A DNA stretch of 64,000 nt from Chloroflexota bacterium (GTDB lineage Bacteria > Chloroflexota > Limnocylindria > QHBO01). Numbering within the stretch: position 1 is the first letter of the stretch; each line of letters begins with the position of its first letter. The notes beneath the pieces were generated by a model. That model saw only the letters and a list, made by a program, of their open reading frames with translations. It did no database searches and was not told the DNA's origin. The stretch lies in contig JBBDXT010000002.1 in the NCBI GenBank assembly GCA_040902225.1, positions 156,036 to 220,035 on the forward strand. Direction: 5' to 3'. Shown here piece by piece: positions 19,025 through 57,176 of this stretch. The translations under genes and the position numbers were made by a program.

Positions 19025-19391
19025 TCCCAGCGCCGACCTGCTCAGGGAGTTCACCGCAGTCTTCAACACGCGCGACCTCGATGCGGTCATGACCTACTTC
19101 ACCGATGACGCGGTCTTCGAGTCGCCCCGCGGCCCGGATCCCTGGGGGACCAGGTTCGAGGGCAAGGAACGGGTACGTGAAGGGCTTGCAGCCCGATTCG
19201 CCGGTCTGCCCGAGCTGCACTACGGCGACGACGAGCACTTCGTCGTCGGGAACCGCGGCGCGTCGGAGTGGACCTTGCGGGGCACGACAACCGACGGCGA
19301 GCGGATCGAGGTCCGAGGCTGCGATCTGTGGACCTTCCGCGACGGCCAGATCACCAAGAAGGATTCCTTCTGGAAGATCCTCGTGCGCTGA
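19014..19391 (+). CDS. NTF2-like/SnoaL-type small protein
   Basis: 125 aa, with FTAVFNTRDLDAVMTYFTDD at the N-terminus and WTLRGTTTDGERIEVRGCDL in the sheet, typical of the nuclear-transport-factor-2-like fold. Binds or isomerises a small hydrophobic molecule. Overlaps the dehydrogenase by 11 bases and precedes the hydrolase by 6, consistent with one transcript. Confidence 0.78.
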   Translation: MSRDPSADLLREFTAVFNTRDLDAVMTYFTDDAVFESPRGPDPWGTRFEGKERVREGLAARFAGLPELHYGDDEHFVVGNRGASEWTLRGTTTDGERIEVRGCDLWTFRDGQITKKDSFWKILVR

Positions 19392-21632: not shown

Positions 21633-22319
21633 ATGACCGACAACGACCCCGACCTCCAGCAGCGTGTGCGGCTCTTCATCTTCGAGCACTTCCTCGACCA
21701 TGCCGCCCCGCCGGTGGTGGAGCAGGTCATGACCGAGTTCTCACTCTCCCGAGCCGCCGCCACCGAGATGCTGAAGGACCTCGAAGCGGCCCATCACATC
21801 GCGCTCGTCAAAGGAACGGCCCGGATCCTGATGGCCTTTCCGTTCTCGGCCATCGCGACGCCATTCAGGACCACGGTTCGCGGCCGCTCGTACTTCGCCA
21901 ACTGTGCCTGGGACGCCATCGCCTTCCACGCCATGCTGGGCGACGAGGTCCGGGTCGAGTCCTTCTGCCACCACTGCGCGACACCGTTTGAAATCGAGCT
22001 GTTGCACGGCCGCGCGTCGCGTGTCGATCCACCCGAATCGCTTGTCTATTTCGCACGCCCTCCGACCGAGTGGTGGGACGACATCACGACCACCTGCGGC
22101 AACACCATGGTCTTCTTCGTCTCCCCCGAGCACCGCGATGCGTCCGACCTCTGCGCAGGAGCCGATCAGTCCGCTTCGTTGACGCCCGACCAGGTCAACA
22201 CCCTCAGCGTGCCAAGCTATTCCACGAAGTTCTCGCTCGACTACACGAGGCCATCGAAGGACGTGCTGCTCGCCCACTGGGCGGCGATGGGCCTCACCGG
22301 CGACTTCTGGAAGCTCTGA
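21633..22319 (+). CDS. MerB-like alkylmercury-lyase family protein (copy 1)
   Basis: 228 aa. N-terminal winged-helix-like part (VVEQVMTEFSLSRAAATEML) followed by a MerB-type core: SYFANCAWDAIAFHAML aligns with MerB's C96-x-x-D99 pair, and TTCGNTMVFFVSPEHRDASD with the C159 region. MerB cleaves C-Hg bonds in organomercurials; many relatives lack mer genes nearby and no merA/merR is seen here, so organomercury activity is not certain. A paralogue roughly three-quarters identical by eye lies at 44112-44792. Confidence 0.75.
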   Translation: MTDNDPDLQQRVRLFIFEHFLDHAAPPVVEQVMTEFSLSRAAATEMLKDLEAAHHIALVKGTARILMAFPFSAIATPFRTTVRGRSYFANCAWDAIAFHAMLGDEVRVESFCHHCATPFEIELLHGRASRVDPPESLVYFARPPTEWWDDITTTCGNTMVFFVSPEHRDASDLCAGADQSASLTPDQVNTLSVPSYSTKFSLDYTRPSKDVLLAHWAAMGLTGDFWKL

Positions 22320-22324
22320 GGAGC

Positions 22325-29597: not shown

Positions 29598-30644
29598 TCA
29601 GGACGGAACGCGCTCGGCGACCTGCAGGCCAAATCCTCCACCCGGAACCAGTGATATCGACTTGCGCGGCACCAGTCCAGCGTCGACCTGCCACGACCGC
29701 ATCTCGTCGAAGGTCCAGATCCCCGATTCGCTGGTCAACGCGAAGTAGAGGTCGAAGAAGGCACCCTGCTGGCCTCCCCTGCCGGGCGAACTCGGGCGAA
29801 GCGCGTCACCGATGACCAGGTACCCACCTGGGCGCAGGGCCTGGGCGGCTCGGCGCGCGAGAAGGCGGTTGGTCGCGTCATCAAAGTGGTGCACGAGGCT
29901 GAACATCAGAATCAGGTCGAAGACAGCCTCACCCAGATCGTCATTGAGCGCGTCGCCGGCTCGCATCACAACCCGATCCCCCATCCCCTCCTTTTCCAGG
30001 AGCGGCGCGGCGTGCTCGACAGCCGCGGGCAGGTCGAGCACCGTCGCTCGGAGCCCGGCGTGCCGTCTGCAGAGAACCACCGAGAAATAGCCGTGTGAAC
30101 CGCCGATGTCCAGCATCTCGGTCGCGCCCGCCGGCACCGGGACCCGCCGCGCGAGGAACGGCGCAAGCACATTGGCTTGAGCCCGCATTCCACGCTGATA
30201 AGCACCCCAGTCCTCTTTGGACATCGTCCCGTGGACGTCGAGCGGTTGGCCGTCGCGCACGAACGAGTCCAGCTGGTCGATCCAGCGCCACTCGAGCTCC
30301 TTCATCAGGATCACGTCGCGGATCGACCCAGGGGCCTCGGCCAGCAACCAGCGCCTCGTATGACGGGCCAGCCGGTACGTGCCACCGCGATAGGCAACGT
30401 ACTTCATCGTCACCAGCAGATTGAGCAGCTTCTCCGTGCCCCGCAGATCGGTCTCGCAGACCTCGGCGACTGCCATCGCTGAGCGCGGGACGGTGCTGAG
30501 TGCCTCAAAGATCCCGAGCCGCGTGGCGGTCGTGATGGCCCGAGCGTAGGCCGGGCTGTAGGCCTCGAGCATGGCCACGGGCACCAGGCCGGAGGCCAGC
30601 ACAGCGCTCTCCAGCGGGTTCTCGGCCATCAGTCCAACTCGCAT
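29598..30644 (-). CDS. Class I O-methyltransferase (plant caffeate/hydroxyindole-OMT-like family)
   Basis: 348 aa from ATG 30644, which has an unusually strong GGAGGAGGT ribosome site. N-terminal dimerisation winged helix (GIFEALSTVPRSAMAVAEVC, TEKLLNLLVTMKYVAYRGG), then SAM fold with MLDIGGSHGYFSVVLCRRH and motif AAQALRPGGYLVIGDAL. Similar to O-/N-methyltransferases of secondary metabolism (Methyltransf_2 with DIGGGxG). Substrate unknown. Catalytic His is plausibly in SLVHHFDD. Confidence 0.83.
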   Translation of the reverse strand: MRVGLMAENPLESAVLASGLVPVAMLEAYSPAYARAITTATRLGIFEALSTVPRSAMAVAEVCETDLRGTEKLLNLLVTMKYVAYRGGTYRLARHTRRWLLAEAPGSIRDVILMKELEWRWIDQLDSFVRDGQPLDVHGTMSKEDWGAYQRGMRAQANVLAPFLARRVPVPAGATEMLDIGGSHGYFSVVLCRRHAGLRATVLDLPAAVEHAAPLLEKEGMGDRVVMRAGDALNDDLGEAVFDLILMFSLVHHFDDATNRLLARRAAQALRPGGYLVIGDALRPSSPGRGGQQGAFFDLYFALTSESGIWTFDEMRSWQVDAGLVPRKSISLVPGGGFGLQVAERVPS

Positions 30645-30736
30645 CGGATTACCTCCTCCAAGCAATCGGCAGCGCGCCCCAACCTGTCAACCCGGTCGCC
30701 CACGAGATTCGCTGAATCGATCCTGTCTCGCCGAGG

Positions 30737-31381: not shown

Positions 31382-31761
31382 CTACCTCGACGCGCTCGCC
31401 CGAAAGCCTTGCTGAGTCCCTTCGTTGCTGCCCCGTGTACCGGTCCGTCCCGAGACGATGAGCGCCGCGCCAAGCGCCATCGTCCCCACGAGAGCCAGAC
31501 GATTCAGGAGGGCTGTTGCAAGCGCCATCTCGGCTGTGAGGCCAATCTGCAAGAACAGAACTGACAGTGCCGCCTCCTGAAAGCCGAGACCGCTCGGCGA
31601 AAGAGGAAGAAGGATCGTGAGGCGCGGGACAGCAATGCATGCGAGGACGGGGCCTGCGTCAGCGTGCCCGCCCAAGGCCGCGACCAGCAGGTAGACCATC
31701 GCGATGCTTCCGAGGTGGAAGGCGAGAGCGAGGCTCGGGGCGGGGGGCACTTTGTGGCGGA
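31382..31761 (-). pseudogene. C-terminal remnant of a flippase-like (LPG-synthase TM/UPF0104) membrane protein
   Basis: The frame reads RHKVPPAPSLALAFHL, then three hydrophobic helices containing RLTILLPLSPSGLGFQEAAL, the conserved PSGLG(F)xE motif of lysylphosphatidylglycerol synthetase-like/YbhN membrane proteins. Only the last ~125 of about 300 residues exist. The 5' side ends exactly where the methylase-derived repeat L begins (31765), so the truncation and the repeat are probably linked. Confidence 0.7.
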
Positions 31762-31764
31762 ATT

Positions 31765-31834
31765 TGCCCGATGCCGCCGTCGACCTGGTCTACCCCGACT
31801 CGCCCTGGCACGCATCGGCCGAGGCGACCTACGC
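31765..31834 (+). repeat. Methylase-5'-fragment repeat, copy L (scar at hemH end)
   Basis: Plus-strand codons give LPDAAVDLVYPDSPWHASAE then ATYA, matching two non-adjacent parts of the longer copy at 53959-54219 (LPDAAVDLVYLDP and WHWGPSAEATYA) with the ~100 bases between them deleted. The repeat separates a truncated membrane-protein gene from hemH, and the hemH stop codon (31829-31831) lies inside it. Most isolated of eleven copies, 12 kb from the next. Confidence 0.75.
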
Positions 31835-43945: not shown

Positions 43946-44106
43946 CCCGCGCTGCTACCCTCTCCCAGACTCGGGCGCCCACCTGAGCCACCACTTGCGG
44001 GAGACCGATGACCGAGCTTGCCACCAACGTCCTCTACTACGGCGACAACCTCGACATCCTGCGTCGCTACCTGCCCGATGCCCAGCTGCTGGCCTTCGAG
44101 GACGGT
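43946..44106 (+). repeat. Methylase-5'-fragment repeat, copy A, with promoter and leader
   Basis: Leader with extended -10 TGCTACCCT (43953-43961), GGGAG ribosome site and ATG 44008. The 35-codon ORF reads TELATNVLYYGDNLDILRRY then LPDAQLLAFEDGRR and stops at 44113-44115. Relative to the long copy G, 31 codons are deleted exactly between two CCGATGCC octamers. The stop overlaps the TTG start of the MerB-like gene. Leader and coding part closely match copy E. Confidence 0.85.
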
Positions 44107-44111
44107 CGGCG

Positions 44112-44792
44112 TTGAAGGCTGAGATGCTTCAGCCAAATGTGCGGCTCTTCATCTTCGAGCACTTCCTCGAGCACGCCGCCCCTCCTGTCGTGGAGCAGGT
44201 CATGGCCCGCTTCTCGCTCTCACGGGCCGACGCGAAGGACGCGCTCCGCGACCTCGCGGCTGCCCGCCACATCGCGCTCGTCCCGGGGACCGACCGCATC
44301 CTGATGGCCTTTCCGTTCTCCGCCATCGCGACGCCGTTCCGGGTGACGGTAGGCGGCCGTTCCTACTTCGCCAACTGCGCCTGGGACGCGATCGCCTTCC
44401 ACGCCATGCTCGATGAGGGCGTGCGGGTCGACTCGTTCTGCCATCACTGCGCCGTGCCGATCCGCATCGAGCTGCAGGGCGGGCGCGCGACCCGCGTCGA
44501 TCCGGTGGAATCGCTCGTCTACCTCGCCCTCCGCCCGACGGAGTGGTGGGGGGACATCGTCACCACTTGCTCGAACACGATGGTCTTCTTCGCCTCCCCC
44601 GAGCATCGCGACGCCTCCGACCTGTGCGCAGGGCCCGATCAGGCCGCCTCGCTGACAGCCGACCAGATCCACTCGCTCAGCGGGCCGATCTACGCCACGA
44701 AGTTCGCCCTCGACTATGCCAGGCCGTCGAAGGAGGTCCTGCTCGCCCATTGGGCGGCGATGGGCCTTACCGGCGACTACTGGAAGCTCTGA
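44112..44792 (+). CDS. MerB-like alkylmercury-lyase family protein (copy 2)
   Basis: About 226 aa from TTG 44112, which overlaps the stop of the methylase-derived mini-ORF (TTGA); ATG 44124 is the alternative. Same architecture as copy 1: RSYFANCAWDAIAFHAML with the MerB C/D pair and VTTCSNTMVFFASPEHRDAS with the second Cys. C-Hg lyase or a related lyase. Upstream of the shared core the two copies differ completely, so copy 2 seems to have acquired a new 5' end from repeat A. Confidence 0.75.
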   Translation: MKAEMLQPNVRLFIFEHFLEHAAPPVVEQVMARFSLSRADAKDALRDLAAARHIALVPGTDRILMAFPFSAIATPFRVTVGGRSYFANCAWDAIAFHAMLDEGVRVDSFCHHCAVPIRIELQGGRATRVDPVESLVYLALRPTEWWGDIVTTCSNTMVFFASPEHRDASDLCAGPDQAASLTADQIHSLSGPIYATKFALDYARPSKEVLLAHWAAMGLTGDYWKL

Positions 44793-44810
44793 CCCTATTC
44801 AGGAGATTCC

Positions 44811-45167
44811 ATGAACAAGGTCAACCTCGACGAGAAGCTCTCGCTATTCGATGACCTCTGGAGCCCCAAGATCGTCGCCCGCCTCAATGACTACGACATC
44901 CAGGTCGCCAAGGCCGACGGTGAGTTCGTGTGGCACGAGCACGCTGAGACCGACGAGTTCTTCCTGGTCCTCAGGGGCCGGCTGGTCATCCAGATGAGGG
45001 ACGGCGACGTTGAGCTCGGCCCCGGTGAGCTGTTCGTCGTGCCGAAGGGAATCGCGCATCGCCCGCGTGCTAGCGACGGCCTGGAAGTTCTCCTGATCGA
45101 GCCTGCCGGGACCGTCAACACCGGCAACGCCGGAGGCGACCTGACCGCGGTCGAAGAGCGCCTCTAG
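44811..45167 (+). CDS. Cupin-domain protein
   Basis: 118 aa. FVWHEHAETDEFFLVLRGRL (motif 1, metal His/Glu) and GELFVVPKGIAHRPRASDG (motif 2). AGGAG precedes ATG 44811, 19 bases after the MerB-like stop, so both form one module between methylase repeats A and C. Resembles mannose-6-phosphate-isomerase-like cupins of unknown substrate. Confidence 0.82.
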   Translation: MNKVNLDEKLSLFDDLWSPKIVARLNDYDIQVAKADGEFVWHEHAETDEFFLVLRGRLVIQMRDGDVELGPGELFVVPKGIAHRPRASDGLEVLLIEPAGTVNTGNAGGDLTAVEERL

Positions 45168-45230
45168 CCGGTCATCGTCTCAGCTGGTGGTAGGCTTCCG
45201 AAACTGATACCCGTCCGCCCACGCGCGGGG

Positions 45231-45312
45231 GACCGACGCCCAGCTGCTGGCCTTCGAGGACACGTGGCACTGGGATCCATCGGCCGAGGCGACCTACGCC
45301 TACCTGACCAAC
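45231..45312 (+). repeat. Methylase-5'-fragment repeat, copy C
   Basis: Encodes TDAQLLAFEDTWHWDPSAEA then TYAYLTN, the distal part of the repeat with no start region. Its first 29 bases (45233-45261) repeat 44075-44103 in copy A with one mismatch, so the MerB-cupin module is bounded by direct repeats. It extends further into the methylase gene (YAYLTN) than any other copy. Confidence 0.85.
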
Positions 45313-50496: not shown

Positions 50497-50693
50497 ACCT
50501 CGCCACCAACGTCCTCTCCTACGGCGACAACCTGGACATCCTGCGTCGCTACCTGCCTGATGCCGCCGTCGACCTGGTCTACCTCGACCCGCCCTTCAAC
50601 TCGAACCGCGACGACAACGTCATCTTCCGCGACGAGTCGGGCAATGCCACCGATGCCCAGCTGCTGGCCTTCGAGGACACCTGGCACTCGTGA
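50497..50693 (+). repeat. Methylase-5'-fragment repeat, copy D
   Basis: Encodes LATNVLSYGDNLDILRRYLP, DAAVDLVYLDPPFNSNRD, NVIFRDESGNATDAQLLAF then EDTWHS and a stop. Keeps the DPPF catalytic motif IV of an N6-adenine methyltransferase but no start codon, SAM motif or target domain. Bounded on the left by a truncated antitoxin and followed, 18 bases later, by the convergent HepT/MntA pair. Confidence 0.88.
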
Positions 50694-50711: not shown

Positions 50712-51050
50712 CTAGGCTTCGGGTAGACCGATCGCGTTCAGCTGCTTGAGAAGTTTGGGCAGGTCGCGGGTGACCGTTCGCCACAGGATCGCGGGATCAA
50801 CTTGCCAGTAGTCGTGCGTGACAAGGTTCCTCATCCCGATCATCTCGCGCCACGGAAGTTGTGCCAGTTCTATCTGGCGCGCTTCCGACACTCTGCCTGC
50901 GGCCTCGCCGATGACGGTGATCTTCTGAATCAGGGCCGCGGCAAGTAGTTCGTCGGTGGCCACGTCATCAGCAGTGCGGTTCTTGATGAACCGACGGGCC
51001 GCGCGGGCGGCGTCGCGGACGTCGATCAGGCGCTCGTCGTCACGCCTCAT
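50712..51050 (-). CDS. HepT-like HEPN ribonuclease toxin
   Basis: 112 aa helical protein with the HEPN active-site RX4H motif RNLVTHDYW. LIDVRDAARAARRFIKNRTA opens it. Such proteins (DUF86/HepT) cleave RNA and are silenced by AMPylation from the MntA partner. Overlaps mntA by 11 bases. The pair sits between repeats D and E. Confidence 0.85.
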   Translation of the reverse strand: MRRDDERLIDVRDAARAARRFIKNRTADDVATDELLAAALIQKITVIGEAAGRVSEARQIELAQLPWREMIGMRNLVTHDYWQVDPAILWRTVTRDLPKLLKQLNAIGLPEA

Positions 51051-51348
51051 AGAGGACCACGGCCTCGCGATCGACGGTTGCGCGCACTCGGGGTTTCAGG
51101 CTTGCTCGCGTCACCAGATCCACCCGCCGTCCGAACAGGGCTTCGAGCTCGAATGCCATGCGGACCTGCTCGAAGAGGCCCGCGTGTGAGTCCGCGGTCA
51201 GGTCCATCATCACGTCGACATCACTTGTCGCCTTCAGCTCGCCGCGCGCCGCGGACCCGAAGACGGCAAGGAATAGCACCCCATGCCGGCGCGCGAAGGC
51301 GACCAACGCGGCACGGCTCACGGACTTCGGATCAATTGCGGGTGCCAT
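51040..51348 (-). CDS. MntA-like nucleotidyltransferase antitoxin
   Basis: 102 aa minimal nucleotidyltransferase. LAVFGSAARGELKATSDVDV holds the GSX10DXD motif and a third acidic residue follows in VDLVTRAS. MntA enzymes AMPylate HepT. First gene of the toxin-antitoxin operon, reading away from repeat E. Confidence 0.87.
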   Translation of the reverse strand: MAPAIDPKSVSRAALVAFARRHGVLFLAVFGSAARGELKATSDVDVMMDLTADSHAGLFEQVRMAFELEALFGRRVDLVTRASLKPRVRATVDREAVVLYEA

Positions 51349-51391
51349 GACAAGAGCCTAGCGCACACGCGCTGACACCGCCCTGTTCTTG

Positions 51392-51589
51392 CCCGCGCTG
51401 CTACCCTCTCATCAGGCTCCGGCGCCCACCTGAGCCAAACCTCGCGGAGGACCGATGACCGACCTCGCCACCAACCTCCTCTACTACGGCGACAACCTCG
51501 ACATCCTGCGTCGCTACCTGCCCGATGCCGCCGTCGACCTGGTCTACCTCGACCCGCGTTTCAACTCGAGGCGCGACGACAAGTTGTAG
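51392..51589 (+). repeat. Methylase-5'-fragment repeat, copy E, with promoter and leader
   Basis: Leader with extended -10 TGCTACCCT (51399-51407), GGAGG near the start and ATG 51455. The 44-codon ORF is TDLATNLLYYGDNLDILRRY, LPDAAVDLVYLDPRFNSRRD then DKL and TAG. Motif IV is mutated (DPPF to DPRF). Nearly identical in leader to copy A. The next gene follows 25 bases later with its own AAGGAGG. Confidence 0.87.
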
Positions 51590-51614
51590 GGTCCCCGCAG
51601 AAGGAGGGCGTCCG

Positions 51615-51968
51615 ATGGAGCTCCATCCCGGGGTCTTCGTGTCGAACGTCACGACCAACGAGTGGCAACCCGACCCGGAGGTCGGTGGTGAGATGCACGT
51701 CTTGGTCGAGGACGAGACAGCCTATGTGGGCATGTCGCGCTTCCGGGACAAGGCGGATCTTGAGCCCTACAGCCTGCCGGAACGAGTGACAGTGCTGATC
51801 CTCGAGGGCAGCGCACGTATCGAAATCCAGGGTGGGCCGACCCTGGAACTGCGTGTCGGCGACATGGCTTCGCTCCCCAAGGGCGCCGTCATCACCTGGC
51901 ACCTGACGCTTCCCTTCATGGAGGTGTGGTTCTTCGGCAGGCCGTACGAGATGGCAAGGGACCGATGA
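51615..51968 (+). CDS. Cupin-domain protein
   Basis: 117 aa. VTVLILEGSARIEIQGGPTL and GDMASLPKGAVITWHLTLPF are the two cupin motifs with reduced metal ligands (few His). ATG 51615 preceded by AGAAGGAGGG, an unusually strong ribosome site. Six bases before the GNAT gene, so co-transcribed. Ligand unknown. Confidence 0.75.
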   Translation: MELHPGVFVSNVTTNEWQPDPEVGGEMHVLVEDETAYVGMSRFRDKADLEPYSLPERVTVLILEGSARIEIQGGPTLELRVGDMASLPKGAVITWHLTLPFMEVWFFGRPYEMARDR

Positions 51969-51974
51969 ACCAGG

Positions 51975-52805
51975 ATGCGGCAGTTGACCCACCGGGAGCT
52001 CGCCACCCTGGAGCACGAGAACTGGATCGCGTACCTGACCGGCGTTGCGAGTTGTGGCGCTCGAACCACGGTGGCCCGCACCGGCGGGGTGCTCACGCTC
52101 ATGACCGGCCTGCCGATGAACTGGTTCAACCAGATCCTGATCGAAGACGAGCACGCGACAGCGGCCGCCATGCTGGACGCCGTGATCCAGGCGCGCGCGG
52201 AGGGCATCGACTTCGTCGTTCGCCTGCGACACGGCATTGATGATCGGTTCATCCCGACGCTGATCCAGGCGGGACTCGAGCCTGAGCCGCCCCAGACGGC
52301 GACTCCCGGCATGGTCGCGTTCCCGATCGACCGCGACGCCATCGCGAAGCAAGCCGTCCCGGAGCTCGGGATTCAACGGGTAACCGACGCGGCGGGCATC
52401 GACGCCCACCGCCAGACAGCGACAGCCGGCTTCGGCGCAGATTCTGCGGTCGCCCAGGGAACCGTGTGCGCGAACCTCCTCGACCGGCCCGGCTGCGTCG
52501 TCTACGTGGGCTACGCGGACGGGGACCCCGTCGTCTCCGGGCTGGGCTGGCGCTCCGGAAGGACCATCGGTGTCTACAGCATCGCCGCCATCGCCTCGGC
52601 CCGCCGACGCGGGTACGCCGCGGCCATGACCGCTCGCATCGTCGCCGACGGTACGCTCGCGGGCTGCGACGTTGCGGCGCTCCAGGCGAGCGAGATGGGG
52701 CGTCCGATCTACGAGCGCCTTGGCTTCCGAACGGTCATCACCTACGCCGCGTATACGGCCCCGTCAGCCGATTGGCGCCGACCTGTCGGCGTCGGCCCGC
52801 GATGA
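51975..52805 (+). CDS. GNAT-family acetyltransferase with N-terminal extension
   Basis: 276 aa. First half (residues 1-115) is a divergent GNAT-like region. The second half has the acetyl-CoA motif IAAIASARRRGYAAAMTARI and ALQASEMGRPIYERLGFRTV, the typical GNAT C-terminus. Cytosolic acetylation of an unknown small molecule. Overlaps the convergent DUF1801 gene by 42 bases. Confidence 0.8.
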   Translation: MRQLTHRELATLEHENWIAYLTGVASCGARTTVARTGGVLTLMTGLPMNWFNQILIEDEHATAAAMLDAVIQARAEGIDFVVRLRHGIDDRFIPTLIQAGLEPEPPQTATPGMVAFPIDRDAIAKQAVPELGIQRVTDAAGIDAHRQTATAGFGADSAVAQGTVCANLLDRPGCVVYVGYADGDPVVSGLGWRSGRTIGVYSIAAIASARRRGYAAAMTARIVADGTLAGCDVAALQASEMGRPIYERLGFRTVITYAAYTAPSADWRRPVGVGPR

Positions 52806-53153
52806 GCCGGCGCGCTGGGCGGCAAGCAGTGCCGCGACCTTGCCCACGAGCCCCAGGGGGATAGGCTTGCTCAGCGGGAACTGGAGGGTTCCCTTTCCGG
52901 ACTTGTGGGCCGTCAGCTCGCGATCGAGCTCCTCGTCGGCGCGGGGTATCGGATAGATGCTGATGTGGCGCTTCCAGCCGGCCAAGCCCAAGTAGCCGCG
53001 GCCGTGGAGCCTGAACGCCGCGATGTCGTAGCTAATCGCCTCCTCTGAGCCCGGCACCGCCCTGCGAATCGCCTGGCGTACGGACTCGATCTTCAGCCGG
53101 ACGTCCGGCGGGAACGACGCGATGTACGCGTCCACGGACTCGAACTTCGCCAC
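52764..53153 (-). CDS. DUF1801/YdhG-like protein
   Basis: 129 aa. SVDAYIASFPPDVRLKIESV, ISYDIAAFRLHGRGYLGLAG, HISIYPIPRA and GTLQFPLSKPIPLGLVGKVA are typical of the DUF1801 family, related to frataxin-like YdhG/Fra proteins thought to chaperone iron. Function here unproven. Divergent from repeat F, 50 bases apart. Confidence 0.82.
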   Translation of the reverse strand: MAKFESVDAYIASFPPDVRLKIESVRQAIRRAVPGSEEAISYDIAAFRLHGRGYLGLAGWKRHISIYPIPRADEELDRELTAHKSGKGTLQFPLSKPIPLGLVGKVAALLAAQRAGSSRADADRSAPIG

Positions 53154-53187: not shown

Positions 53188-53326
53188 TGCTAGCCTTGGA
53201 CTCATGCCCGACCTCGCCACCAACGTCCTCTACTACGCCGACAACCTCGACATCCTGCGTCGCTACCGGAACGATGGCCAATTCCCAAGGACCGAAAGGC
53301 TGCGCCGAACGCTGGAGAGCAGGTGA
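53188..53326 (+). repeat. Methylase-5'-fragment repeat, copy F, forming a coupled leader ORF
   Basis: Extended -10 TGCTAGCCT (53188-53196) ends 7 bases before ATG 53204. A 40-codon ORF begins with the methylase sequence PDLATNVLYYADNLDILRRY (to about 53266), continues with unrelated RNDGQFPRTERLRRTLESR, and its TGA (53324-53326) overlaps the GTG start of the next gene. Promoter, start and coupling are all supplied by the repeat-derived segment. Confidence 0.85.
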
Positions 53327-53916
53327 CCGACCCGATCGCGGACGTCCTCGGCGACTACCAGGCATTCTTCGCCGGCCAGAAGGACCGGCTGCGCGCGCGC
53401 GGAATCGACATCTCGCCGTATTCGCTGAGCCACCTGGCCTACCGCGTCCCCGAGTACGACCAGTACCTCCACGTCCGCGGCCTGCTCGAGCGCCACGCCG
53501 CGGCGAACCTGGAGGGCGTCTGGAACGGGCGGCCGATCTCGATGATCCTGCTGCGCGAGCCCCTGCACGTGGAGCCGCACGTGACCGTCGAGCTGATCGA
53601 GCTGATCCCGCCGGTCCACCAGCGCGTCTACAAGATGGGGCTCGAGCACGTCGGGGTCGTGCTCGGCGATGCCGTCGACGAGTTCGCCCGGACCCATCGG
53701 GCGGCCCTCACCGGCCAGCAGTTCCAGAGTGAAGACAACGAGCCGTACTACATCCTGTTCGAGGACTTCACCCACGTGAAGTTCCACCGGTCCTCGCTCC
53801 GCGCGGTGGTCGAGCGCCAGCGCGGATCGTTCGACCGCTTCGTCCACGTCGACGATTGGGTCCCGCCGGTCGTCCGCACCGCGACGAGGGGCGATGACGC
53901 GCGCCGCACACCGTGA
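53323..53916 (+). CDS. YecM-like VOC-fold protein
   Basis: 197 aa. HLAYRVPEYDQYLHVRGLLE, GRPISMILLREPLHVEPHVT, VELIELIPPVHQRVYKMGLE and HVGVVLGDAVDEF resemble YecM-type proteins, isomerase/oxygenase-fold members with an HxxYRV start. GTG 53323 overlaps the stop of the methylase-derived leader ORF (GTGA), so translation probably depends on it. Function unknown. Confidence 0.72.
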   Translation: MTDPIADVLGDYQAFFAGQKDRLRARGIDISPYSLSHLAYRVPEYDQYLHVRGLLERHAAANLEGVWNGRPISMILLREPLHVEPHVTVELIELIPPVHQRVYKMGLEHVGVVLGDAVDEFARTHRAALTGQQFQSEDNEPYYILFEDFTHVKFHRSSLRAVVERQRGSFDRFVHVDDWVPPVVRTATRGDDARRTP

Positions 53917-53958: not shown

Positions 53959-54219
53959 GTGCCTGACCTTGCCACCAACGTCCGCTACTACGGCGACAAC
54001 CTGGACATCCTGCGTCGCTACCTGCCCGATGCCGCCGTCGACCTGGTCTACCTCGACCCGCCCTTCAACTCGAATCGCGACGACAACGTCATCTTCCGCG
54101 ACGAGTCGGGCAATGCCACCGATGCCCAGCTGCTGGCCTTCGAGGACACCTGGCACTGGGGTCCATCGGCCGAGGCGACGCACGCCTGGGCTGCGGCTGC
54201 GATCTCCCTCGCGCAGTGA
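53959..54219 (+). repeat. Methylase-5'-fragment repeat, copy G (longest uninterrupted)
   Basis: 86-codon ORF from GTG 53959: PDLATNVRYYGDNLDILRRY, LPDAAVDLVYLDPPFNSNRD, DNVIFRDESGNATDAQLLAF, EDTWHWGPSAEATHAWAA, ending AISLAQ. It contains motif IV (DPPF) and the following conserved NVIF region of type III Mod-like N6-adenine methyltransferases, then diverges after ATHA. TGA (54217-54219) overlaps the GTG start of the deaminase gene. Reference copy for comparing the others. Confidence 0.9.
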
Positions 54220-54710
54220 AGGGGACGCGGCTGGCCATGACGAGCATCGATACGGACCATCTGAGACGTGCGATCGCGATTGCCCATCGTGCGCGCGCCA
54301 ACGGCAATCATCCGTTTGGCGCCCTGCTCGTCGACGCCGCGGGCGAGCTGGTCGCGGAGGCGGAGAACACAGTTACCAGCGATGGCGATCCGACTGCGCA
54401 CGCAGAGATCAACCTCGTACGTACAGCCGGACGCCGCTTTGACCCCGACTACCTCTCGGAGTGCACGCTCTTCTCCAGCACCGAGCCCTGCGCGATGTGT
54501 GCGGGCGCCATCTACTGGGCCGGGATCGGTCGGGTGGTGTTTGCGCTGGGCGAGGACGAGTTGCGCCGCATGACTGGCAGCAACGCGGCTAGCCCGACGC
54601 TCGCATTGCCGAGCCGCGAGGTGTTCGCCCGAGGCCAGCGCTCAGTGCGGGTGGAAGGGCCGGCGCTGCTGGACGAAGCACGCGCGGTTCACGACGGCTT
54701 CTGGGGATGA
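54216..54710 (+). CDS. Nucleoside/nucleobase deaminase (CDA fold, guanine deaminase-like)
   Basis: 164 aa from GTG 54216, which overlaps the stop of repeat G; ATG 54237 is the alternative start without overlap. DPTAHAEINLVRTAGRR carries the first Zn ligand His and the proton-shuttle Glu, and STEPCAMCAGAIYWAGI the two Zn Cys. FALGEDELRRMTGSN is typical of guanine deaminase/TadA relatives. Too divergent for a confident tRNA-adenosine deaminase call; free base or nucleoside substrate is likelier. Confidence 0.85.
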   Translation: MKGTRLAMTSIDTDHLRRAIAIAHRARANGNHPFGALLVDAAGELVAEAENTVTSDGDPTAHAEINLVRTAGRRFDPDYLSECTLFSSTEPCAMCAGAIYWAGIGRVVFALGEDELRRMTGSNAASPTLALPSREVFARGQRSVRVEGPALLDEARAVHDGFWG

Positions 54711-54740: not shown

Positions 54741-54905
54741 ATGCAGACCAACGTCCTCTACTACGGCGACAACCTCGACATCCTGCGTCGCTACCTGCCC
54801 GATGCCGCCGTCGACCTGGTCTACCTCAATGCGCCCTTCGACTCCAATCGCGACTCCAACGTCATCTTCCGCGATGAGCCGGGCAATGCCGCCCCTTGGA
54901 GTTGA
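54741..54905 (+). repeat. Methylase-5'-fragment repeat, copy H
   Basis: The ORF starts at ATG 54729 with GGAGGAGG upstream: AEPMQTNVLYYGDNLDILRR, YLPDAAVDLVYLNAPFDSNR, DSNVIFRDEPGNAAPWS. Motif IV is mutated (DPPF to NAPF). It follows the deaminase stop by 18 bases. The downstream gene reads out of it in the +1 frame: ATG 54886 (or 54874) inside the repeat is the best start of the CDP-alcohol phosphatidyltransferase. Confidence 0.87.
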
Positions 54906-55548
54906 CCGACAGTCCGGCGAGAAGTCCAGTGTTATCGGTCACCTACGGACGCTGCCGAATCAACTGACTGCGATTCGGTTGCTCGTCGTGCCCCTGATAT
55001 GGGTCTTTGCCTTGCTTGAGGCACGGGTCTACGTCGGCGCCGGTCTTATGGCCGCGCTGATCACGGACGCCTTCGACGGAATGGCGGCGCGAAGACTGGG
55101 CCTGACATCGGACTTCGGGAGCAAGTTCGACTCGATTGCGGATCAAGCGGTTCAGCTCTCGTCCATCGGGTGGGTGCTCCTGCTGATGCCGGAGATCATC
55201 ACGGACAACCTCGTCGCCTCCGCGCTTGCGCTCGGGACGTACCTCGCGTCCTTGACGGTGGGCCTGGTCAAGTACAGGAGACTGGGCAACCTCCACCTCT
55301 ACCTCTCGAAGGTGGGCGGCCTGTTCCTGTACCTTTTCCTCATCCAAGCATTCCTGGTCGGCCGATATAGCCAGCCACTGTTCCTGATGGCGGTGCTTGC
55401 ATTCACCCTGTCGTCCGTGGAGACGCTTGCGCTCCAGTTGATGTCATCCGAGGCCGATGGCGAGACGGGATCCATTCTTTTCCGGTACATCCCAGACGAT
55501 CATTGGATTCGACGCTGGGCAGGCGGGGCGCCCCGGCGGGGCGAGTGA
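54886..55548 (+). CDS. CDP-alcohol phosphatidyltransferase
   Basis: About 220 aa with six hydrophobic helices. The complete catalytic motif DG(x2)AR(x8)G(x3)D(x3)D is present in DAFDGMAARRLGL, GSKFDSIAD. LPNQLTAIRLLVVPLIWVFA is the usual first helix. Makes a phosphatidyl or inositol/glycerol-phosphate lipid in the membrane. No start codon exists between the methylase repeat and the conserved N-terminus, so translation must begin in the repeat (ATG 54886 or 54874). Confidence 0.85.
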   Translation: MPPLGVDRQSGEKSSVIGHLRTLPNQLTAIRLLVVPLIWVFALLEARVYVGAGLMAALITDAFDGMAARRLGLTSDFGSKFDSIADQAVQLSSIGWVLLLMPEIITDNLVASALALGTYLASLTVGLVKYRRLGNLHLYLSKVGGLFLYLFLIQAFLVGRYSQPLFLMAVLAFTLSSVETLALQLMSSEADGETGSILFRYIPDDHWIRRWAGGAPRRGE

Positions 55549-55960: not shown

Positions 55961-56000
55961 CGTACGCCGGCACTGGTAGCGAAAGCCCTCGGCAATTGCC

Positions 56001-56128
56001 CCCACTGCTACCCTCTCCCCACCCTGACCATTTACTCGCGGGGGGTTCGATGCAGACCAACGTCCTCTACGGCGACACCTCGACATCCTGCGTCGCTACC
56101 TGCCCCATGCCACCTTCGACAATCAGTG
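56001..56128 (+). repeat. Methylase-5'-fragment repeat, copy I, with promoter, frameshifted
   Basis: Leader with TGCTACCCT (56006-56014), then ATG 56050 and QTNVLYGD. One TAC codon and one base are lost relative to other copies, so the frame shifts after GGCGAC, although the DNA still matches through GTCGCTACCTGCC. The ORF continues to a TGA at 56167-56169 and overlaps the GYD gene start (56154) by 16 bases. Most decayed of the promoter-bearing copies. Confidence 0.8.
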
Positions 56129-56153: not shown

Positions 56154-56486
56154 ATGCCGTTTTACCTGACACGGTTCAGCTACACGCCAGTTACCTGGGC
56201 GAAGCTCATGAAGAACCCGGAGGACCGCCGGGCGGCAGCCACGAAGTACATCGAATCGGTCGGCGGCAAGCTGCACGGCTTCTGGTACGCCTTCGGGGAT
56301 CACGATGGCTACAACCTGTGGGAGGCTCCAGATAACGTCTCGATGGCAGCCACGGCGATTGCTATCAGTGGTGGCGGGGCCCTGAGCTCCCTCCAGACGA
56401 CGGTCCTGCTGACGGTTGAGGAGACGCTCGCAGCCCTCCAAAAGGCCTCGTCGATCACCTACCGTCCACCCGGAGGCGAAGGATAG
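56154..56486 (+). CDS. GYD-domain protein
   Basis: 110 aa. YLTRFSYTPVTWAKLMKNPE, YIESVGGKLHGFWYAFGDHD, and SLQTTVLLTVEETLAALQKA match the GYD domain (ferredoxin-like fold, dimeric), usually with GxYD in place of GDHDGY. Small cytosolic protein of unknown role. GGAGG precedes ATG 56154 within the tail of the repeat I ORF. Confidence 0.8.
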   Translation: MPFYLTRFSYTPVTWAKLMKNPEDRRAAATKYIESVGGKLHGFWYAFGDHDGYNLWEAPDNVSMAATAIAISGGGALSSLQTTVLLTVEETLAALQKASSITYRPPGGEG

Positions 56487-56518
56487 GAGCCCTCCGGCTC
56501 GATGCCTATCGACCCGAG

Positions 56519-56542
56519 ATGGAGACCAACGTCCTCTACTAC
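56519..56542 (+). repeat. Methylase-5'-fragment repeat, copy J (24 bases)
   Basis: ATG 56519 followed by ETNVLYY, matching the start of the methylase ORF, then unrelated sequence in the same open frame (EPGRQPDRIEWRARDLQQ). The frame stays open into copy K and ends at 56701, a 60-codon composite ORF made of J, a 99-base spacer and K. Confidence 0.7.
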
Positions 56543-56635
56543 GAGCCCGGTCGCCAGCCAGATCGAATTGAGTGGCGAGCACGAGATCTTCAACAGCCAA
56601 CCGCAGGCCGTGGCCGATCAGATCTTCAGCCTCCT

Positions 56636-56701
56636 GGACCGATGACCGACCTCGCCACCAACGCCCGGCTGCTGGCCTTCGAGGACACCTGGCACGAGTG
56701 A
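56636..56701 (+). repeat. Methylase-5'-fragment repeat, copy K
   Basis: GACCG then ATG 56642 with TDLATNARLLAFEDTWHE and TGA. The middle of the repeat is deleted in frame: LATN joins directly to (Q/R)LLAFEDTWH. Stop at 56699-56701, eight bases before GTG 56709 of the next gene. Confidence 0.82.
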
Positions 56702-56708
56702 CGCGAGC

Positions 56709-57176
56709 GTGACACGACATTCCGCGAAGGATCCAAGCACGGCCGATGGACCGCCCATGAGCAAAGAGGCGATGGATCGCTTCCTGGAGCGCCCCCTTAT
56801 CGCCCGCCTGGGGACGAGCGACGGCGATCGTCCCCGCGTCCTGCCGATGTGGTTCTGGTGGGATGGCAGTGACGTCTGGATGGAGACCAGCCCCACCTTC
56901 GCGAACTACCGCGTTCTCCGGCGCAACCCGCACGCGGCGCTCACGATCGATGAGGCGGTGAGTGGCCTCGCGATGCGTGCAGTCGTGATGCGTGGGCGGG
57001 TCGAGATCGTGGATGAGCCCCTCGACAATGTGATGATCACGGTTCGCCGCATCCATGACCGATACCTCTCGCCGGAGGAGCGAGCCTCGGACGCCGGCCG
57101 CGCGATGCAGCTCGGCAGCCACGTGTTGCTGCGGTTCATCCCCGACCGCACCATCACCTGGGACACCACGACCTGA
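56709..57176 (+). CDS. PPOX-class (pyridoxamine-phosphate-oxidase-fold) protein
   Basis: 155 aa from GTG 56709; ATG 56757 (SKEAMDRFLERP) is an alternative. LIARLGTSDGDRPRVLPMWF, DVWMETSPTFANYRVLRRNP and AVVMRGRVEIVDEPLDNVMI outline the split-barrel fold that binds FMN or F420. Likely a small redox or cofactor-binding enzyme. Last module before the LacI gene, headed by repeat K. Confidence 0.82.
   Translation: MTRHSAKDPSTADGPPMSKEAMDRFLERPLIARLGTSDGDRPRVLPMWFWWDGSDVWMETSPTFANYRVLRRNPHAALTIDEAVSGLAMRAVVMRGRVEIVDEPLDNVMITVRRIHDRYLSPEERASDAGRAMQLGSHVLLRFIPDRTITWDTTT

Follow-up and report, generated by a model that had tools for sequence, protein, structure and literature searches.

Fragments from the 5′ end of a methylase-nuclease gene, all on one strand, alternate with unrelated single genes in a Chloroflexota genome: a possible integrase-less gene array

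The genome of an uncultured Chloroflexota bacterium (G000) carries, on the contig designated C2, approximately fifteen fragments that lie on one strand and derive from the 5′ end of a single DNA methylase-nuclease fusion gene. They alternate with mostly different, small and unrelated single genes, as though a broken defence gene now served to separate captured genes and to signal their starts. The array extends from 43.9 to 56.7 kb of the window, i.e., the 64,000-nucleotide stretch of C2 that was analysed, and a second block, ending at 70.5 kb, lies just beyond the window. Fragment positions are given as window coordinates throughout, and fragment limits were placed by hand from BLAST/nhmmer output. 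In our best reading, to which we assign a probability of about one half, this is an integrase-less gene array in which the promoter-leader of a defence gene provides both recombination homology and an expression head, by a mechanism that we infer.

The 29-base repeat and methylase copies A and C

The preliminary description of this region had reported a 29-base near-identical direct repeat on either side of two genes, and this is borne out: the first copy (CCGATGCCCAGCTGCTGGCCTTCGAGGAC; 44075-44103, + strand) and the second (CCGACGCCCAGCTGCTGGCCTTCGAGGAC; 45233-45261, + strand) are in direct orientation and identical at 28 of 29 positions, with one mismatch. The genes inside the bracket are, as had been proposed, a MerB-like gene of the alkylmercury lyase family (44124-44792, +; PF03243, E 2.6e-23) and a cupin gene (44811-45167, +; PF07883, E 4.7e-13), and the MerB-cupin unit does constitute discrete cargo. 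Translation around the repeat yields the start of a DNA methylase, in agreement with the earlier identification of the repeats as methylase pieces, of which copy A runs into the 5′ end of the methylase and copy C extends on to ...TYAYLTN. A 24-mer core of the repeat has five matches in the window, all on the + strand (44080, 45238, 50655, 54124 and, with one mismatch, 56663), where shuffled sequences lead one to expect none. The repeat pair is far above chance, yet it represents merely two members of a larger family.

Copy A (43946-44103, +) is composed of a promoter/leader module (43946-44007) and of methylase codons 1-25 continued in frame by codons 57-63, with a stop at 44113-44115; these 32 codons, numbered on the 53.96-kb copy, reflect a 93-nt in-frame internal deletion between two 8-bp CCGATGCC microhomologies. 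Copy C (45188-45312, +) has lost its start codon and consists of a decayed promoter/leader (45188-45236), which aligns to the methylase leaders of the relative G009 (P<=5e-4), joined to codons 54-80. Since copy A has its own internal deletion and copy C its own decayed leader, the two are not halves of one fragment, and the length of 29 bases simply reflects how far two copies with different deletions overlap.

The earlier proposal that A and C are a single methylase fragment, split by a MerB-cupin insertion that duplicated 29 bases, accounts for the one-mismatch direct repeat on both sides, but is scarcely credible: the segment recurs at three further sites in the window and beyond it, the internal deletions of A and C differ, and copy C, with a leader of its own, is an independent copy. 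Furthermore, a check for a joined A-C fragment found none in the sequence of relatives examined, including the array of the same-genus relative G002 (Chloroflexi bacterium MGR_bin359, JACDEL010000031.1). Target-site duplication by a transposable element was likewise rejected in view of the five copies in the window, their separate leaders and the finding that the G002 sequence examined has no empty, joined site. Repeats on either side of a gene are not necessarily insertion scars.

Fragments and cargo along the array

A model built from the fragments themselves locates them at 31.8, 44.0, 45.2, 50.5, 51.4, 53.2, 53.96, 54.7, 56.05, 56.5, 56.65, 66.0, 68.5 and 70.3 kb, all on the + strand, the last three falling past the window end. 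An old, decayed leader with a fragment is also present on the same strand approximately 17 kb beyond the array, at C2 position 243066 (~87 kb; L301:6066-6158). The fragments are ~30-230 bp long and contain, in G000, the promoter/leader and codons 1 to ~80 at most, with nothing further. Their 3′ ends are scattered between codons ~9 and 80, several lying near codons 74-77 (TCGGCCGAGGCGACC). In many fragments a start codon and a ribosome-binding site accompany a promoter-like extended -10, TGCTACCCT being the module at which transcription is proposed to start, while several are frameshifted, interrupted by stops or devoid of a start codon. Strong matches to the promoter module are, in G000, confined to C2, at or near arrays. 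A putative leader hairpin (GGCTC..CGCCCA..GAGCC) was noticed by eye only.

The outermost member on the left is a tiny decayed methylase 5′ remnant (31752-31834, +; nhmmer E 1.9e-8; blastn 42 bp at 95%). In the array proper, the MerB gene behind copy A has a possible TTG start at 44112 that would overlap the TGA stop of the fragment (TTGA). A second MerB gene (21633-22320), 80% identical in DNA to that of the array, has no recognisable methylase fragment ahead of it. Longer genes, mostly on the - strand, occupy 45.4-50.1 kb, after which a fragment of codons ~3-66 without a start codon (50497-50688, +) adjoins a HepT/MntA-type toxin-antitoxin pair (50712-51348, -) composed of HepT (50712-51050; PF01934, E 1.7e-21) and a nucleotidyltransferase (51040-51348; PF01909, E 6.3e-13). 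The following fragment (51388-51590, +) comprises the promoter module and codons 1-43, with a stop two codons past the junction, and precedes a Cupin_3 gene (51615-51968, +; PF05899, E 1.4e-7), a GNAT-like gene (51975-52805, +; PF13527, E 4e-4, below cut-off) and a DUF1801 gene (52764-53153, -; PF08818). Codons 1-22 are found at 53204-53270 (+) ahead of a YecM-like gene (53323-53916, +; PF06185, E 1.5e-17), and codons 1-76, with a GTG start, at 53959-54187 (+) ahead of a cytidine/deoxycytidylate-type deaminase gene (54216-54710, +; PF00383); the end of the fragment's open reading frame overlaps the YecM start in the former case and the deaminase frame in the latter, both as GTGA.

A fragment with an MQTNVL-type start, extending to ~codon 53 (54741-54893, +), stands before a CDP-alcohol phosphatidyltransferase gene (54910-55548, +; PF01066) that lacks its own start codon from the junction up to 54910. 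A promoter-module remnant with a frameshifted fragment (55999-56120, +) is followed by a GYD-domain gene (56154-56486, +; PF08734) and by a fragment remnant of ~codons 1-9 (56512-56543, +). The last fragment in the window (56635-56700, +), in which codons 1-7 are joined in frame to codons ~57-66 through an internal deletion and a stop lies one codon past the junction, precedes a PPOX-family gene (56709-57176, +; PF01243). An apparent alpha/beta-hydrolase-like 3′ remnant, recognized by eye, lies at 56544-56640 between the two last-named fragments, and its stop overlaps the next ATG (CGATGA).

An in-frame methylase stop occurs within three codons past the 3′ junction in 12 of 25 fragments, compared to 4 of 50 other frames (P 1.5e-4, with hand-set boundaries and copies that are not fully independent), the background median distance to a stop being 49 codons. 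These early in-frame stops suggest that the fragments are translated.

The parent gene and the arrays of relatives

No intact methylase copy was found in the G000 genome. G002 possesses an intact gene of ~547 aa beside a permease, whose product matches PF01555 (N6_N4_Mtase, E 2.3e-40) and PF04471 (Mrr_cat, E 6.4e-6), both over cut-off. These matches liken the parent gene to methylase-nuclease fusion restriction-modification genes, of which G000, in contrast, retains 5′ fragments only. Downstream of the G002 gene are a DUF262-like frame and others (named by eye), and the part of its contig that was read contains no array fragments. The place orthologous to this G002 permease locus is taken, in G000, by the 66.0-kb fragment. 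A phage-borne source was considered and rejected: the best viral match has 79% of residues in common with the 80-aa start, and thus no close viral source was found. In family f3, elsewhere in the class, nearly all strong methylase matches lie in long open frames, with a few in shorter ones; one class-level relative has two methylase matches with identical scores and frame lengths (G063:C1:206361 and G063:C45:8270).

Methylase fragments are present within the family in G002, G003, G009 and G012, in the latter three beside other genes. Because the assemblies of G002, G003 and G009 each hold several fragments on one contig, an assembly artefact is unlikely and was discarded as an explanation. The G002 array reads leader-MerB, fragment-cupin-SnoaL-like, fragment-PPOX and then a conserved LacI region, so that G000 and G002 share the order MerB, cupin, PPOX, each gene following a methylase promoter or 5′ fragment, with extra genes between them in G000. 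The G002 MerB gene starts at a methylase-type ATGACTGAC directly after a methylase leader, and the two genomes agree in the position of the fragment-PPOX junction; the cupins are only 46% identical, and their linkage is therefore weaker evidence. Synteny between G000 and G002, the only two assembled arrays, breaks at or beside arrays or fragments. A HAD-MerB adjacency, sought as an ancestral order, was not found in relatives. In G012 (L045:6199-7008), a methylase fragment is directly followed by a pair resembling DUF433/DUF5615 by eye, like a toxin-antitoxin cassette.

The start of another gene (MRVGLMAENPLE...) is found at 30589-30685 (-) of the window and twice in the G002 array (L037:5362-5458 and 19267-19362); given this recurrence, duplication of 5′ fragments may not be limited to the methylase. 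Several genes of window 18-32 kb are located instead in the array zone of G002 (L037/L038), and the plastic region therefore extends beyond the fragment array.

Ten flanking or cargo genes show a synonymous divergence of 0.60-1.33 between G000 and G002, while that of the methylase fragments is mostly 0.06-0.34, with relaxed dN/dS; the fragments are thus younger than the genes they separate. Their youth may be due to gene conversion, to exchange between species or to recent gain. The common PPOX junction, as a single junction, slightly favours renewal of an old site, and low synonymous divergence could alternatively mean that each lineage acquired the methylase recently.

Proposed working of the array and competing explanations

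In an integrase-less gene array, the fragments would represent a common stretch of homology at which DNA recombines via the ordinary cellular RecA pathway, probably often in a one-sided manner, with homology on one side and an illegitimate junction on the other, such that genes may be gained, lost or swapped between relatives at the fragments. The closest published logic is that of T6SS orphan-immunity and Rhs displacement arrays, in which acquired modules are added successively at a constant gene and leave remnants, and for which homologous and homology-facilitated illegitimate recombination were proposed and no integrase evidence was found (PMC5361080). Those arrays share with the present one the horizontally acquired modules and the remnants left behind, but here the remnant is the constant methylase 5′ end with its leader, and the cargo consists of unrelated single genes rather than immunity genes. 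The present arrangement would be the mirror image of the T6SS displacement model, with the constant 5′ end staying in place and cargo being joined behind it. As in a displacement array, remnants of the same gene are present between successive cargo genes; an intact constant gene at the array end is absent.

Since many fragments supply the -10, ribosome-binding and start-codon signals described above and finish, beside the cargo start, as a short terminated leader, they may also act as expression heads. We infer that recombination depends on RecA and that homology is one-sided, and likewise that the leaders act as promoters, that cargo is expressed from the fragments and that its translation is coupled to theirs. 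Several observations count against this reading. Fragments flanking a cargo are not the mutual closest relatives that simple circle integration would predict, and three G000 fragments (45.2, 50.5 and 66.0 kb) stand before - strand genes. Not all fragments can be expression heads, because several are frameshifted, carry stops or lack a start. Moreover, at ~30-230 bp the fragments approach the minimum length that RecA recombines efficiently.

It is rather doubtful that the zone is instead a passive one, in which a methylase defence gene was repeatedly acquired, duplicated and deleted and the 5′ ends are roleless leftovers. The relaxed dN/dS, the frameshifts, the internal deletions at microhomologies and the decayed copies at 31.8 and 87 kb would all be expected from such a history, but the survival of 5′ ends alone and never of the other 85% of the gene, the single strand throughout, the early in-frame stops and the fragment-cargo linkages conserved between species argue against it. 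The methylase-type start of the G002 MerB gene behind a methylase leader would also suit a promoter-start unit that copies itself upstream of existing genes and is selected for switching them on, as would the start codon kept by most copies and the fact that 10 of the 11 start-retaining copies stand before + strand genes (P 0.04). This is nonetheless unlikely, as the G000 copies are restricted to one zone of one contig instead of being dispersed genome-wide, lie on a single strand and show no carrier element. Putative mobile promoters (Matus-Garcia et al. 2012, as cited in PMC9208149) are, as far as described there, similar in placing a repeated promoter-like region ahead of unrelated genes, and differ in that the repeats found here include coding sequence and occupy one zone and one strand.

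A site-specific cassette system of a novel, integron-like kind, with its site inside the methylase 5′ region, is very unlikely: it would explain why small genes are arrayed singly around a shared repeated element and why several fragments end near codons 74-77, but not the overall scatter of 3′ ends, and no tyrosine or serine recombinase is nearby. The sole PF00589 (tyrosine recombinase) match on C2 lies at 27.5 kb of the contig, ~130 kb before the window start and ~170 kb from the array; serine recombinases were found only on C4 and not on C2, and no transposases occur among the zone proteins scanned. An integron was rejected, there being no integron-type tyrosine integrase next to the array and no TIGR02249 match over cut-off in the genome. 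Integron gene-cassette arrays resemble the present array in that a repeated element separates single genes of mostly one orientation, and carry cargo of similar kinds. Besides the integrase, the differences lie in the repeat, here a coding 5′ fragment whose ends scatter, and in the promoter-like leader of several copies.

No published account of methylase 5′-fragment arrays was found in a literature search. We tentatively suggest, as a possibility beyond the integrase-less array itself, an integrase-independent gene-capture platform, in which a restriction-modification gene lends its promoter and translated start as both recombination anchor and expression head to an open-ended array, whose single genes are exchanged between species. 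Little is known of the ways in which bacteria that lack integrons gather single foreign genes and express them. Should the fragments indeed work in this manner, a dead defence gene would have been turned into a site of gene acquisition and expression, and the fragments of G000, G002, G003, G009 and G012 offer material with which to test whether integron-like arrays may arise from plain homologous recombination.
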